From Rhodohalobacter halophilus (GTDB lineage: Bacteria > Bacteroidota > Rhodothermia > Balneolales > Balneolaceae), in the NCBI RefSeq assembly GCF_001715195.1, contig NZ_MDWE01000041.1, positions 1 through 47,732 on the forward strand: DNA of 47,732 nt, written 5' to 3'. Below, piece after piece: positions 7,601-41,376 of this stretch. Position 1 is the stretch's first letter, and the number at the start of each line of letters is the position of its first letter. Below the pieces are notes generated by a model. The model made no database searches. It worked only from the letters and a program-made list of their open reading frames with translations, and was not told the DNA's origin. The translations under genes were made by a program, and so were the position numbers.

Positions 7601-7747
7601 CAACGAATCCTTCTTGGGTTCAATCTGACTGTATGAACCGGAAATGAGACGATCCTTACAAAAATCGTCTCTTTTTGTACGGAGTCTTTTGGAAAGCACA
7701 ATAATTAATTAGATTTGGACACTGTAAAAAACTCAAAAACTCACTTT

Positions 7748-8848
7748 ATGCCTTCAATCGGGAAAGACTTAGCGACCATCAGAAAACACCTTGGGATGTC
7801 TATTGAGGACATACAGCATGCGACCAAAATTCCCCTTGATACCCTGAAGTCTATCGAAGACAACTCCATTTTTGAGAGTAAAGAGGAGATTCAAACATAC
7901 ATCAGGAGTTTTGTCCGCACATATGGGCGGAAACTGAAACTGGATGATGAACTGGTTGTAGAAGCACTCGATCGGCAGGAAGTGGGCGGTTACAGCCATC
8001 AATTGCTGCAGGGTTATCCTGAACTAGCACCCAAAGAGAGTCGGCCGGAGAAGACCCCGCCTCAAAAATTAGAAGAGGAACCCGAAGATGTGAAGAGTGC
8101 AGAACCGGTGAGTCAAGAAAGTGAAGAGCCGGATCAGCCCGAAAGTGAAGAGAACACACCTGAAAAAGCGGCGGCAGCTCCCAAAAAAGAGGCCGAGCCC
8201 GGCCAAGCGCCGAATGTTCACAACGTGAACTGGGCGGATATGGGGAAAAAATTCTCTAAACCAAAAAACGGCGCACCGGTTCAGCTGATTGGCATCGGTG
8301 TGATCGCCATCTTTATCATTGCCATCGTCTATTTTGTGTTTATCAGTGATGATACTGAGTCGGGTCAAACTGCACAGATGGAAACACCGCCGGTTCCCGA
8401 AGAGACGATCCGGGGCGGAGAGAGTAGCGGAATTCCGCTGGACCTGTCCGATGAACCGGAACAGAGCACTGAACCTACAACTCCTGCAGAGTTGGATGAT
8501 ACTCTCTACATCACCATCTATGCTGCGAATGACCGGCTCGACCCTATTCGGGTCTGGAGTGACCTCAAACCGCGTATTGATCCCTATTGGATTGAGCAGG
8601 GATTGGCACTCAACTTCGAATTTCAAGACACCCTCCGCTTCCGCGGGCAGTACAGCAGAATGCTTGTTTTTATGAATGGCCACCGGATTGACAACTTCCG
8701 CGAGCAGTATTTTAATGCCGGAGAGAATTCTGTGGAACTGACCCGCAGCATTTTTGAAGATGATCCAAAGTGGGCCACCCCCATTCCGTTTGAACTCCCG
8801 CCGAACGTAGATGAACCCGACTCTGTTGCAAACAGACCCTCATTTTAA
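7748..8848 (+). CDS. RodZ-like helix-turn-helix membrane protein
   Basis: A 366-residue protein with RodZ layout. The N-terminus (about residues 4-70) is a RodZ-type helix-turn-helix domain (IGKDLATIRKHLGMSIEDI and later SFVRTYGRKLKL). A long acidic Pro/Glu-rich linker (about 95-160) follows, then one transmembrane segment at about 178-199, and an extracytoplasmic domain that resembles the C-terminal DUF4115 region (IYAANDRLDPIRVWSDL ... LEFQDTLRFRG-like). RodZ links MreB filaments to the cell wall machinery. A TTG start 11 codons upstream (7715) is possible; the ATG is chosen because it begins just before the domain. Ends 23 bases before ligA. Confidence 0.8.
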   Translation: MPSIGKDLATIRKHLGMSIEDIQHATKIPLDTLKSIEDNSIFESKEEIQTYIRSFVRTYGRKLKLDDELVVEALDRQEVGGYSHQLLQGYPELAPKESRPEKTPPQKLEEEPEDVKSAEPVSQESEEPDQPESEENTPEKAAAAPKKEAEPGQAPNVHNVNWADMGKKFSKPKNGAPVQLIGIGVIAIFIIAIVYFVFISDDTESGQTAQMETPPVPEETIRGGESSGIPLDLSDEPEQSTEPTTPAELDDTLYITIYAANDRLDPIRVWSDLKPRIDPYWIEQGLALNFEFQDTLRFRGQYSRMLVFMNGHRIDNFREQYFNAGENSVELTRSIFEDDPKWATPIPFELPPNVDEPDSVANRPSF

Positions 8849-32104: not shown

Positions 32105-32398
32105 ATGACTTATCGTGAACTCATAGATAAACTTGCCAAAGCTACAGGGCGGTCTAAAACCGAAACCAAAGAGCTTCTTGATGATACTGTCTCTACTCTT
32201 TCCGGTCAGCTTTCCCGCGGAAAGGGAGTTTCCATCCCCGAACTTGGAACCTTCAATACAAAGGTGAAAGAGGTTCAGAAAGTTTACAATCCGCACTATA
32301 AGAAGTATATGCTCGTACCACCCAAGCGTGTGGTGGAGTTTAGCCCGTCGTCGGTTCTTAAAGATGAACTAAAGTTCGCGGGAAAAGACGATGAGTGA
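32105..32398 (+). CDS. HU/IHF-family DNA-binding protein
   Basis: A 97-residue nucleoid protein of the HU/IHF fold that bends double-stranded DNA. It begins MTYRELIDKLAKATGRSKTE, the usual helical dimer core, followed by the beta arm region SIPELGTFNTKVKEVQKVYNPHYKKYMLVPPKRVVEFSPSS (split here in two segments, about 44-84). The arm region departs from classical HU, which has RNPxTG; here NPHYKKYMLV takes its place, so DNA binding may differ. It overlaps the next HU-like gene by 8 bases, so the two are co-translated and may form a heterodimer. Confidence 0.88.
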   Translation: MTYRELIDKLAKATGRSKTETKELLDDTVSTLSGQLSRGKGVSIPELGTFNTKVKEVQKVYNPHYKKYMLVPPKRVVEFSPSSVLKDELKFAGKDDE

Positions 32399-33647
32399 AA
32401 AAATCACCTTCCGGGAGTTGGTTGAACTGATTGCTAAACAGTCGGAACAGAGCCAATCTTCCACAAACAGTTTTATCGGAGAACTTGTCAAGATTATTGA
32501 ATCCGGCCTGAGGGATAGCGGATCGGTGAGTATTTCGGGATTTGGAAAGTTTGAACTTCGATGGATGAAGGAGCGTCCGGGTGTTAATCCCCAAACCGGG
32601 GAAGAGATTACCATTCCCGGCCAGAATAAAGTTGTGTTCAAACCTTTTAAGGCACTCCGCGAAGATGTAAATCGCCCATATGCTAAAATGGAGGCCCGGG
32701 TACTGGATGAGAAACCCGGAGATTCTGAAAATGATGCCAACAAAGGTAGTAAACATGATCTGACCGAAACAAACCCTCCACTTTCTAAAAGCGGGGTATC
32801 CGATTCCCGTGAAGATGACGGTGAAGACTTCCTGGTGGAGCGGCCCAACCCTGTTAAAAAAGAACCCGCCAAACCGGAAGAAAAAAAGAAGGAAAAACCG
32901 GTTACCGCACCTGCCTCCAAAAAAAGTGAGGTTGAGAAAATTTCCGGTGAACATCCTGCTAATGAAAAGCGGCCTGCTTTAACCCCCGAAAAAGAGACTG
33001 AACTGGTTGAAGAAGTTCAGAAGAGAAGCGGCATGAATTGGTCGTATGCAGCAGCCGCAGTTTTGGTTGCATTGGTCATATTTTTAATTTTTCTGATGAG
33101 TCGGCAGACCGACAACGGTTCTGAAAATGAACTGGCCTCGCAATCCGATCAATTAACAGAGCAGGTTGCTCCCAATCAATCAGGCCAAGAATTTGCCGAA
33201 AGTGAGCCTGATGTAGAGCCGGGCCCCGAACCGCCGCCCCAAGAACCTGATTCTCCTCCGGCGGGTGAAGAGAGTGACATTCCAACGAATGTGCATACGA
33301 TAGAACAGGGAGAATCTCTTTGGAGTATTGCAGAAAGCACGCTGGGGAATCCCTACTTGTGGCCGGCCATCTACAATTTGAATCAGAATGAGTTTGAAAA
33401 CCCAAATATGATACAGGCATCGGCTGAGCTGGATGTCCCTGTATTTTCAGATCCAGACAACCTGACGGAGCAGCAGCGGTATCAGGTTGCAGAAGGATAT
33501 CTCGCGGTCTATCAATGGACCCGTACCAACAACCCGGATGATGCAAAGCACTTTCTCTGGGCAGTTGGAGTCTTTTCTCCGGATCTGCTCGATCAAGCAG
33601 CTTCAAGCGTAGATCAGGCAGATCTCGCGTTTGCCAAAACGCGATAA
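32391..33647 (+). CDS. HU-like domain fused to a membrane anchor and LysM domain
   Basis: A 418-residue protein with an unusual domain order. Residues 1-92 are an HU/IHF fold with a classical arm (KERPGVNPQTGEEITIPGQN, 60-79). A charged, Pro/Lys/Glu-rich linker follows (about 95-212), then a single transmembrane helix (about 217-236, WSYAAAAVLVALVIFLIFLM), an acidic Pro-rich spacer and a LysM domain at about 301-352 (VHTIEQGESLWSIAESTLGNP), with about 65 more helical residues. By the positive-inside expectation, the HU part is cytoplasmic and LysM is in the periplasm, so the protein could tie DNA to the cell wall. The start overlaps the upstream HU gene by 8 bases. Confidence 0.85.
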   Translation: MSEKITFRELVELIAKQSEQSQSSTNSFIGELVKIIESGLRDSGSVSISGFGKFELRWMKERPGVNPQTGEEITIPGQNKVVFKPFKALREDVNRPYAKMEARVLDEKPGDSENDANKGSKHDLTETNPPLSKSGVSDSREDDGEDFLVERPNPVKKEPAKPEEKKKEKPVTAPASKKSEVEKISGEHPANEKRPALTPEKETELVEEVQKRSGMNWSYAAAAVLVALVIFLIFLMSRQTDNGSENELASQSDQLTEQVAPNQSGQEFAESEPDVEPGPEPPPQEPDSPPAGEESDIPTNVHTIEQGESLWSIAESTLGNPYLWPAIYNLNQNEFENPNMIQASAELDVPVFSDPDNLTEQQRYQVAEGYLAVYQWTRTNNPDDAKHFLWAVGVFSPDLLDQAASSVDQADLAFAKTR

Positions 33648-34058: not shown

Positions 34059-34334
34059 ATGAATGAAGATGAACCCCATAAAATCCCCATCAATGGGGTG
34101 CTTGACCTCCACTATTTTGCCCCGGAGGATCTCTCCACGTTGATTGACGAGTATATTCACGCCTGCCTCGAAAAGGAGATCTATCAAGTACGGTTTATTC
34201 ACGGGAAAGGGATCGGGAATATCAGGCGAAGTGTACACGCCCTTCTTGAGCGGAATCCACATGTTACCGGCTATCAGCTTGCGGATGAATCGGGTGGGGG
34301 CTGGGGGGCCACCATTGCTAATCTGAGGCCTTAA
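34059..34334 (+). CDS. Stand-alone Smr-domain protein
   Basis: A 91-residue protein consisting only of a Small MutS-Related (Smr) domain. The two hallmark motifs are present: LDLH (residues about 13-16) and RFIHGKGIGNIRRSVHALL (about 44-62), with the C-terminal strand GGWGATIANLRP. Smr domains are nucleases or ribosome-quality-control factors. The paralogous Smr domain is at the C-terminus of MutS2 in this window (from about 41140), so a short and a long Smr protein coexist within 7 kb. A short open frame, but a full domain. Confidence 0.88.
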   Translation: MNEDEPHKIPINGVLDLHYFAPEDLSTLIDEYIHACLEKEIYQVRFIHGKGIGNIRRSVHALLERNPHVTGYQLADESGGGWGATIANLRP

Positions 34335-38970: not shown

Positions 38971-38982
38971 ATGTCGAATCAC

Positions 38983-41376
38983 ATGCAACTTTTCCCAGAT
39001 AACAGCTCTCAAAAAATTGGTTTTGAGAGTATCCGATCAGCAACTCTCCGCAAAAGTTATACCCCTTACGGGCAGGAGGAGATTTTGCGCCTCACTCCCT
39101 CTTCCGCCAAAACCGTTGTTGAGAAGAGACTAGCCCGATCTGCCGAATGGATGAAAATCTTGCAGAGCGGAGCCGGCCAGCCGCTCACCGTGATCGACGA
39201 TATCCGAGATATTTTAAAAGACAGCCGCCTGAAGGGAACCATTCTCCCCTTGGATGATTTTCCGGTTATTTACCAAAATGCGCGCCTCTCGCGGTTACTG
39301 ATCAGTTTTTTTAAAAGGCTCGAATTTGACACCCCTGCCCTGGACGAGGTAACTGATCGCCTGGTGAACCTGAAACCGCTGGAAGAAGCCATACAGCGAG
39401 TAGTGACCGAACGCGGCGAGCTTCGGGATGATGCCAGCCGGGAGCTTCAAAGAGTTCGGGGTAAATTGAACCGGGAGCGCAGTAAACTTCGCAGCACGGT
39501 TCAGCAGGTCATGAAGCGTTTGGCAAAGGACGGAATGACCTCTGATGAAGGGGCAACCATCCGAAGCGGACGAATGGTAATTCCCGTCCAGGCTGAATAT
39601 AAACGCAAAGTGGATGGATTTATTCATGATGTCTCCTCCACCGGGCAAACCGTCTATATTGAACCGGTTCAGGCACTTCAGATCAACAACGAAATCCGAC
39701 AGCTTGAGGCTGAAGAGAAGCGGGAAATTGAACGGATTCTCCGCTCCCTCACAGACGAAGTGCGAAAATACAGTGAAGAGCTGGAGCTGAACTGTACCTA
39801 TATCGGAGAACTGGATGCGATCCACAGTATGGTGTCTTTGGGGCTGGACCTGGATGGAGCCATTCCCGAACTCTCCGACAATCGCCGCATCAACCTGATT
39901 CGTGGCAAAAACCCGAACCTGATGCTGAAAAACTTCTCGCTGAAAGAGCCGGAACCGGTAGTACCTCTGGATCTCACCCTTGAAGAAAATGAACTTGGCC
40001 TGGTCATTACCGGACCCAATGCAGGAGGTAAATCGGTAGCCATGAAAACGACCGGGCTTCTCTGCATGATGCTCCAGTCCGGCTTCCCGATTCCTGTTCA
40101 GCCCGATTCTCAGCTTCCGGTTCTGAGCGGGCTTTTCGTAGATATCGGGGATGATCAATCCATTGAAAATGATCTGAGTACATTTTCGTCCCGACTGAAC
40201 TGGATGAAAATAACCCTCAGCAGAATGGAAATAGGTTCACTGGTTCTGATTGATGAGGCGGGCGCCGGGACTGATCCTGAGGAAGGCGGAGCTCTCTTTC
40301 AGGCTTTTGTGGAAGAGGTGATTGAGCGCGGTTCACGCGTGATCGTTACAACGCATCACGGATCGCTGAAAGTTTTTGCCCACGAACATGATCAGGTGGT
40401 CAACGGTGCCATGGAGTTCAATCAGGAGAGCCTCTCTCCTACCTACCGTTTCAAGAAAGGCGTACCCGGAAGCAGTTATGCCTTTGAAATTGCCGACAGA
40501 ATGGACCTGCCGGTCAAATTGATGAAACGAGCACGCGCTCTGCTGGGTGAACAGAAAGATTCAATGGGTGATCTGCTGATCAATCTGGAAAGACAAACCC
40601 AGGAAGCAGAAGAGCTTCGTCTCAGCTATCTGAAAAATCAGCGGGAAGCGGAAAAACAGGAGCGGGTTTACAGGGAAAAGTCGGAACAGATTGACCGTAA
40701 GCGGAAGGGCATTATTGAGAAAGCGTACAAAGATGCCGAGGAGATTATGAAAGATGCCAACCGAAGGATTGAGGAGGCGGTTGAGAAAGTGGTGAGTGAA
40801 GGCCGGGACGATAAAGAGAAAATCCGTGAGGCTCGATCTGAGATCGAAAAAGCAAAAAAGGAGATTCGCACATTCAAAGATGAGTATGAACAAGAAACTG
40901 AAAAACCGGTCAAGCGTAATGAAAAGCCTGACATTGGAGATCACGTTCTGATTGGTGACGGAAACACCACGGGCGAACTGGTGGAACTCTCGGGAAAACA
41001 GGCCACTGTTTTAGTCAATGGGATGAAAATAAAATCGAAACTGAACAAGCTCACAAAAACCGAACCTCCTGCCAAGAAAAAACAGAAGAGCCGATCCCGA
41101 TCGTATGGCGGTTCCCAGGAGATAGATTTATCCGTTAAACCAAGGCTCGATTTACGCGGCAAACGGGGTGACGAGGCTATTAAAGAGCTCACTCTCTATC
41201 TCGATAAGGCCATTGCACGCAACTTGCAGCAGGTGGAAATTGTGCACGGTAAAGGAGAAGGTATTCTGCACAAACTCGTTCACGAATACCTCGAAAAACG
41301 TGATGGAGTAAAATCGTTCGACATCGCGCCGTGGGAGAGCGGCGGCAGCGGGTGCACGATTGTTGATTTAAAGTAG
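38983..41376 (+). CDS. mutS2: Endonuclease MutS2
   Basis: A 797-residue MutS homologue without the mismatch-recognition domain. MutS2 proteins suppress recombination and, in Bacillus, rescue collided ribosomes. Visible parts: core and clamp helices (about 1-310), Walker A GPNAGGKSV (about 343), Walker B SLVLIDEAGAGTDPEEGGAL (about 416), a long Lys/Glu coiled coil (about 535-640), and a C-terminal Smr domain with LDLRGKRGDEAI and VEIVHGKGEGILHKL (about 720-795). An ATG four codons upstream at 38971 abuts a stable hairpin. The ATG at 38983 begins MQLFPDNSSQKIGFESIRS, which fits the usual MutS2 start, so it is preferred. Confidence 0.93.
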   Translation: MQLFPDNSSQKIGFESIRSATLRKSYTPYGQEEILRLTPSSAKTVVEKRLARSAEWMKILQSGAGQPLTVIDDIRDILKDSRLKGTILPLDDFPVIYQNARLSRLLISFFKRLEFDTPALDEVTDRLVNLKPLEEAIQRVVTERGELRDDASRELQRVRGKLNRERSKLRSTVQQVMKRLAKDGMTSDEGATIRSGRMVIPVQAEYKRKVDGFIHDVSSTGQTVYIEPVQALQINNEIRQLEAEEKREIERILRSLTDEVRKYSEELELNCTYIGELDAIHSMVSLGLDLDGAIPELSDNRRINLIRGKNPNLMLKNFSLKEPEPVVPLDLTLEENELGLVITGPNAGGKSVAMKTTGLLCMMLQSGFPIPVQPDSQLPVLSGLFVDIGDDQSIENDLSTFSSRLNWMKITLSRMEIGSLVLIDEAGAGTDPEEGGALFQAFVEEVIERGSRVIVTTHHGSLKVFAHEHDQVVNGAMEFNQESLSPTYRFKKGVPGSSYAFEIADRMDLPVKLMKRARALLGEQKDSMGDLLINLERQTQEAEELRLSYLKNQREAEKQERVYREKSEQIDRKRKGIIEKAYKDAEEIMKDANRRIEEAVEKVVSEGRDDKEKIREARSEIEKAKKEIRTFKDEYEQETEKPVKRNEKPDIGDHVLIGDGNTTGELVELSGKQATVLVNGMKIKSKLNKLTKTEPPAKKKQKSRSRSYGGSQEIDLSVKPRLDLRGKRGDEAIKELTLYLDKAIARNLQQVEIVHGKGEGILHKLVHEYLEKRDGVKSFDIAPWESGGSGCTIVDLK

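Follow-up and report, generated by a model that had tools for sequence, protein, structure and literature searches.

A two-gene HU and HU–LysM system in Balneolaceae as a candidate tether between nucleoid and cell wall

Rhodohalobacter halophilus carries two overlapping genes, one for a free HU-family protein (HU1) and one for a longer, membrane-anchored protein (HU2) that leads from an HU domain through a single membrane helix to a LysM-type end. Both lie in the window, that is, the whole stretch of 47,732 nucleotides that was analysed. The gene pair itself, its domain order, the predicted folds, a topology signal and the joint conservation of the two genes are observed; from these we infer translational coupling, a heterodimer, binding to DNA and to the wall, and a role in the cell. 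Our preferred reading, held with modest confidence, is that HU1 and HU2 would be co-translated and form a heterodimer on the inner membrane, tethering DNA on the inside to the wall on the outside.

The gene pair and its distribution

The initial annotation had described an HU gene that overlaps a second gene by 8 bases, and its coordinates proved exact on re-reading. The order it gave to HU2 (HU domain, charged linker, one membrane helix, LysM) was upheld by Pfam, by profile search and by the structure model (Table 1). The helical bundle behind LysM, a further HU pair with a SPOR end in the genome and the broad distribution of the LysM pair are additions to that description. The host genome (3.12 Mb) has six HU-domain matches in all; these belong to the LysM pair, to another pair that lies on contig 18, and to free HUs encoded by contigs 45 and 67. 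Elsewhere in the window, a stand-alone Smr protein (34059-34331, by Pfam) lies near a putative MutS2 (38971-41376) with an Smr end of its own, seen by eye, and the gene at 7715-8848 looks RodZ-like by eye, with a helix-turn-helix, a membrane helix and a periplasmic part.

Table 1. Features of the HU1–HU2 pair, with positions in the window
Feature	Position	Strand	Description
HU1	32105-32398	+	Free HU-family protein, 97 aa, full beta-arm (VYNPHYKKYMLVPPKR); PF00216 70.3 bits
HU1/HU2 overlap	32391-32398	+	8 bases (ATGAGTGA); the end of HU1 is the start of HU2
HU2	32391-33647	+	418 aa; HU, linker, membrane helix, linker, LysM, helical bundle
HU2 HU domain	32391-32681	+	aa 1-97, canonical arm VNPQTGEEITIP; PF00216 83.5 bits; pLDDT about 92 at aa 11-80
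HU2 cytoplasmic linker (predicted)	32682-33038	+	Charged, mostly disordered; short helix at aa 199-212 ahead of the membrane
HU2 membrane helix, single	33039-33116	+	aa 217-242; hydropathy and model
HU2 periplasmic linker (predicted)	33117-33281	+	Acidic, proline-rich; low model confidence
HU2 LysM domain	33282-33443	+	aa 298-351; profile against solved structures, and model; Pfam score under cut-off
HU2 C-terminal helical bundle, after LysM	33468-33644	+	aa 360-418; model

We name the family Balneolaceae from its named relatives. Seventy loci, chosen for a match to HU2, were inspected; four are shorter copies (L011, L023, L025 and L035), which leaves 66 distinct loci, the window included. HU1 is followed by a whole HU2 in 61 of the 66, and each of these HU2 proteins has one membrane helix. 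The pair is cut short by a contig end at L022, L039 and L074, and L075 comes from a genome without the pair that was picked through a weak match. At L060, in genome G038, the HU and LysM parts of HU2 are in separate frames, through decay or an assembly error. The genes overlap in 57 of the 61 pairs (by 8 bases in 37, 4 in 15, 11 in 3 and 1 in 2) and are separated by a gap of 2-3 bases in 4. Because the pair recurs in this way, a chance or mis-called overlap is ruled out, and the overlap points to translational coupling of HU1 and HU2.

Of 92 family genomes searched with a LysM-end profile, 74 have a strong match (E <1e-26) and 18 have no such match. Some of the 18 are incomplete, and seven of them (G006, G008, G011, G012, G016, G017 and G039) are 97-99% complete, so the pair is dispensable in some lineages. 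When 45 family genomes were searched with both the HU1 and the LysM profiles, the two were present together in 39 and absent together from 6 (G006, G008, G012, G016, G039 and G079), the weak matches in G012 and G016 falling in other LysM proteins. No strong LysM-end match was found in 36 genomes from other families of the order, where the best (8.2e-10) falls in other LysM proteins; occurrence within the order is therefore patchy. In many loci the neighbours of the pair are aconitase and Dabb genes, which are absent from that place in Balneola and Gracilimonas loci. They are thus probably outside the system, and a function read from these neighbours was set aside.

Named relatives came from a scan of GTDB species genomes, of which we took the best 80 of 474 loci. 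A phylum-wide search with a full-length profile scored at most four candidates per genome, for which HU paralogues compete, and its absences were left unused. Among the best 80 of 474 loci, 70 have the HU domain inside a protein of more than 250 residues, the other 10 being short HUs. An HU gene lies directly upstream of the long HU protein in 69 of the 70, and the exception, L138, starts at a contig end. These 70 named loci share some genomes with the 66 distinct loci above, and the two counts should not be taken as independent. They comprise 38 of Balneolaceae type (among them L124, titled Chitinophagaceae, and L152, titled Rhodothermia), 30 titled Bacteroidales, its families or Bacteroidetes, one Neomarinimicrobiota MAG and one Chromatiales MAG. 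Tannerella, Segatella buccae, Massilibacteroides, Prevotellaceae and Paludibacteraceae are among the Bacteroidales-type carriers in this best-80 set.

The family LysM-end profile matches 52 of the 70 named loci at E <1e-4. The remaining 18 are of Bacteroidales type, with ends that are LysM-like by eye where inspected. Pfam found no LysM in L177 (profile-negative), nor in L169 or L182 (both profile-positive). A Bacteroidales profile, searched against 149 genomes from the same order as G398, matches 28 at E 1e-15 or better, some over the C-terminal part only, from which we take the system to be patchy in Bacteroidales. Pairs in Bacteroidales, in the Neomarinimicrobiota MAG and at other named loci rule out a peculiarity of a single lineage. 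Unfamiliar as the LysM version was to the initial annotation, it is not unique to the host genome, being common in the family and scattered in Bacteroidales.

Several of the named loci have features of their own. At L169, Pfam places genes for an SRP54-type GTPase (FtsY-like) and a radical-SAM protein (RimO-like) upstream of the pair, and MoxR-type and DUF58 genes downstream; L192 and L201, also from Bacteroidales, have the same gene order by eye. The pair at L182, in the MAG titled Chromatiales, has a LysM end of family type (5.6e-23) and adjoining PP2C and FHA genes, and may be there by transfer or by mis-binning. L170, L174 (Methylobacter) and L190 have tandem HU genes with no membrane helix found in the second; L174 is in broken frames, and L190 is at a contig end.

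Topology and the LysM end

A single stretch of HU2 (residues 218-236) exceeds 1.6 on the Kyte-Doolittle scale, within the modelled helix, and no second hydrophobic segment able to act as a signal was seen in the protein. In three sets of pairs, HU2 has exactly one membrane-like segment (61/61, 39/39 and 31/31 proteins), and HU1 of the same sets has none. In 58 of the 61 family proteins, lysine and arginine within 15 residues of the helix are more numerous on the HU side (2 ties, 1 opposite; mean 3.72 vs 0.95). This bias is weaker in the Bacteroidales group, with the HU side richer in 18 of 31, 9 ties and 4 opposite. An HU part in the cytoplasm and a LysM part in the periplasm, as the initial annotation had assumed, is likely, and the assumption is upheld by prediction from the family charge bias and the one helix in each protein. 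The spacing from HU domain to membrane ranges from 44 to 259 residues across the 61 proteins, and in the model of HU2 pLDDT is <50 over most of residues 114-194.

The Pfam LysM model (PF01476) gives HU2 17.2 bits, below its cut-off of 20.9, and in the family reaches E 0.1 or better in 17 of 60 proteins (best 8.4e-4); our LysM call is therefore based on a family profile and on the model. Searched against solved structures, a profile of 41 C-termini matches Kbp (5.9e-11), TsaP (1.4e-6) and SafA (2e-4). The last 120 residues of HU2, modelled alone, have a pLDDT of 96.9, and in the full model the LysM (about residues 299-350) is followed by four helices to the end of the chain, with a pLDDT of about 97. 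Foldseek first matches to the C-terminal model are Kbp, chains titled LysM domains and chains of phage or injection-system baseplates, at probability 1.00; their E-values start at 0.025, none being <0.001. HU2 thus has both the LysM fold (beta-alpha-alpha-beta) and profile kinship to solved LysM domains. The helical bundle behind it (33468-33644) is common to the family, in two length forms. By profile, the LysM is of the same type as in Kbp (YgaU) and TsaP, although neither of these has an HU domain; Kbp is a cytoplasmic protein with a BON domain.

LysM domains usually bind peptidoglycan or chitin. K+ or protein can be bound as well, and in baseplates the domain has a role in assembly. Two readings of the LysM end compete with a wall tether. 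In one, the pair would be a membrane sensor: LysM and extension would read a periplasmic ligand (a wall fragment, an ion or a protein) and change the binding of HU to DNA, the output being gene control and not anchoring. The best solved structure for the profile belongs to a potassium binder, Kbp, and the family-wide extension after LysM could offer a partner site. Yet the cytoplasmic linkers, which are long, mostly disordered and highly variable in length, suit a tether better than the transfer of a signal, and HU has little sequence preference; we consider a sensor unlikely.

We also give little credence to a second reading, in which DNA would be bound inside and LysM would dock onto a protein, such as an outer-membrane or division partner, in place of peptidoglycan. 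The match to the LysM of TsaP and the usual role of LysM domains in wall or chitin binding speak against it, while the baseplate chains among the first Foldseek matches and the helical extension common to the family are what it has in its favour.

HU domains and their SPOR relatives

Both HU domains exceed the PF00216 cut-off of 22.4 bits (Table 1), the match in HU2 covering residues 8-94. The HU-HIG model (PF18291, cut-off 26.2 bits) gives HU1 34.8, well under its PF00216 score, and HU2 24.9, which is below the cut-off; both proteins are far under the cut-offs of the NCBIfam models for HU and IHF subunits. By profile, the best solved structure for HU1 is 1b8z, which we take to be Thermotoga HU, and for HU2 a single-chain IHF followed by HUs. 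The HU part of HU2 is modelled, from an alignment of 37 sequences, as helices and strands from residue 7 to 97. The pair shares with the DNA-bending HU/IHF proteins (PF00216) an HU domain over cut-off, the arm and its proline. It differs from them in that HU2 carries a membrane anchor and about 320 residues beyond its HU domain, and in that the free HUs of the host genome are separate (contigs 45 and 67).

In the window, HU1 and HU2 both have a beta-arm with a proline at its tip. Among family HU1 proteins, 36 of the 61 were aligned, and the arm tip reads NP in 30, SP in 4, -P in 1 and otherwise in 1 (proline in 35/36); the arm proline is present in 59 of 60 family HU2 proteins. A pattern search of the 31 Bacteroidales-type loci (from the best 80 of 474) gave an arm with N-P or S-P for 28 HU1 and 4 HU2 proteins, and the HU pair may be lopsided there. 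Conservation of the arm in excess of the rest of the HU domain was not significant, since circular shifts reached the observed difference in 27 of 90 and in 20 of 95 cases. Family HU1 and HU2 domains have a mean net charge of about +0.6 and +0.5, and those of the Bacteroidales group one of +5.3 and +2.5; the window values are +6 for HU1 (residues 1-90) and +1 for HU2. The arms of both family HUs appear suited to DNA, which we presume the LysM pair to bind.

The initial annotation had likened HU2 to the HU-SPOR proteins of Bacteroidota, and the comparison is apt, as the host genome has one. It lies on contig 18 (L007:3989-7576), where a pair of HU' and HU-TM-SPOR genes is followed by MotA/ExbB, ExbD and TonB_C genes. 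HU' has 70 residues (PF00216 39.0 bits), and the HU-TM-SPOR protein has 471 (SPOR 44.7 bits, PF00216 23.1, HU-CCDC81_bac_2 20.9, cut-off 35). In 89 of the 92 family genomes, the SPOR protein has relatives at E 1e-8, many of which match over the SPOR end only.

The HU-CCDC81-SPOR proteins of Bacteroidota (PF18174, PF18175, a membrane helix and PF05036) likewise combine two HUs with a single membrane helix and, at the C-terminus, a wall-type domain. In a phylum sample of 148 genomes, 29 have PF18175 above cut-off. Viewed by eye, twelve PF18175 proteins have in one chain two HU-like parts, a membrane helix and then a SPOR-like end; bac_1, bac_2 and SPOR were all confirmed by Pfam in the two that were tested (L215 and L216). 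The series of two HUs, membrane helix and wall-type domain is thus a single chain in HU-CCDC81-SPOR and split over two genes in the LysM pair. This one-chain form is in keeping with two HU domains acting as a working unit. The LysM pair differs in having LysM in place of SPOR, its HUs on two genes, and both arms. Its two proteins are below the cut-offs of the HU-CCDC81 models (HU1 13.7 bits for bac_1, cut-off 26, and 19.5 for bac_2, cut-off 35; HU2 13.0 for bac_2), and Pfam finds no SPOR domain in HU2, where LysM stands instead. The split pair on contig 18 is of the same general type as HU-CCDC81-SPOR, although the CCDC81 models are under cut-off there too. Burroughs and colleagues are said to have proposed, in 2017, a role in chromosome partition for the HU-CCDC81-SPOR proteins.

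Alignment of one host-genome pair and one flavobacterial-type protein shows that, in the SPOR type, the second HU is without the arm and the first without N-P; the comparison is by alignment, a text-pattern count of arm lengths having been inconsistent and discarded. Given these losses in the SPOR type, the LysM pair is the better candidate for true DNA binding. The same losses bear on a further reading, in which the HU domains would be protein–protein modules and the pair an envelope scaffold without DNA contact. A protein–protein role has been proposed for CCDC81-type HUs, and the loss of one arm in the host SPOR pair indicates that HU domains in such a setting can dispense with it. Moreover, N-P or S-P was not found in the HU2 arm at 27 of the 31 Bacteroidales-type loci (from the best 80 of 474), the net charge of the family HUs is near zero, and their arm is without special conservation. 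Even so, a scaffold is improbable in our view, because both family HUs of the LysM pair have full-length arms with the tip proline, unlike the SPOR pair.

For a tree of 74 HU domains we took 16 family pairs (from the 61) and 16 named pairs, to which 10 single or free HUs were added. A branch supported at 100/99 separates all 32 HU2 domains from HU1 and the single HUs. The HU1 domains of the family, of Neomarinimicrobiota and of the Chromatiales MAG fall on one side of a branch with 95/88 support; among the Bacteroidales HU1 domains (n=14), 13 are in an unresolved zone, and L172, on a long branch, is among the single HUs. The tree supports HU1–HU2 as an old two-gene unit, short of proof, as it has 97 columns and its single HUs are mostly from the same search as the pairs. 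It is likewise supported that the two genes stay together across deep divergence.

A possible nucleoid–sacculus tether

If the pair is a tether, HU1 and HU2 would be produced together from their overlapping genes and would pair through their HU domains. HU2 would be an N-in, single-pass inner-membrane protein, which would put the HU pair at the cytoplasmic face. There it would clamp chromosomal DNA with its two arms, and on the other side the flexible periplasmic linker would bring LysM and the helical extension to the cell wall. The outcome would be a link between nucleoid and sacculus with little sequence preference, useful in nucleoid placement or segregation. Counting against a tether are the arm, which is not specially conserved, the near-zero charge of the family HUs, the HU2 arms and the weaker charge bias around the helix in Bacteroidales, Kbp as the top LysM match, and the 18 of 92 family genomes with no strong match to the LysM end.

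A wider and more tentative reading, possible though rather doubtful, is that of an ancient two-gene system of Bacteroidota and their neighbours. In it, a dedicated HU heterodimer would tie the chromosome, across the inner membrane, to peptidoglycan over the whole wall, beside a SPOR-based HU tether at the septal wall or division site.

To our knowledge, little is known of nucleoid positioning and envelope attachment in Bacteroidota. Searches of the open-licence literature brought up no paper on the HU-TM-LysM architecture, and Burroughs et al. 2017 may mention LysM forms. As a conserved combination of HU, membrane helix and wall-type module, this two-gene candidate makes the question of how nucleoid and envelope are connected directly testable, and the pair is found in cultured genera (Gracilimonas, Fodinibius, Tannerella and Segatella, among the best 80 of 474 loci). 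If the tether is real, HU, usually a free architectural protein, would act in a membrane-anchored device across distant orders.
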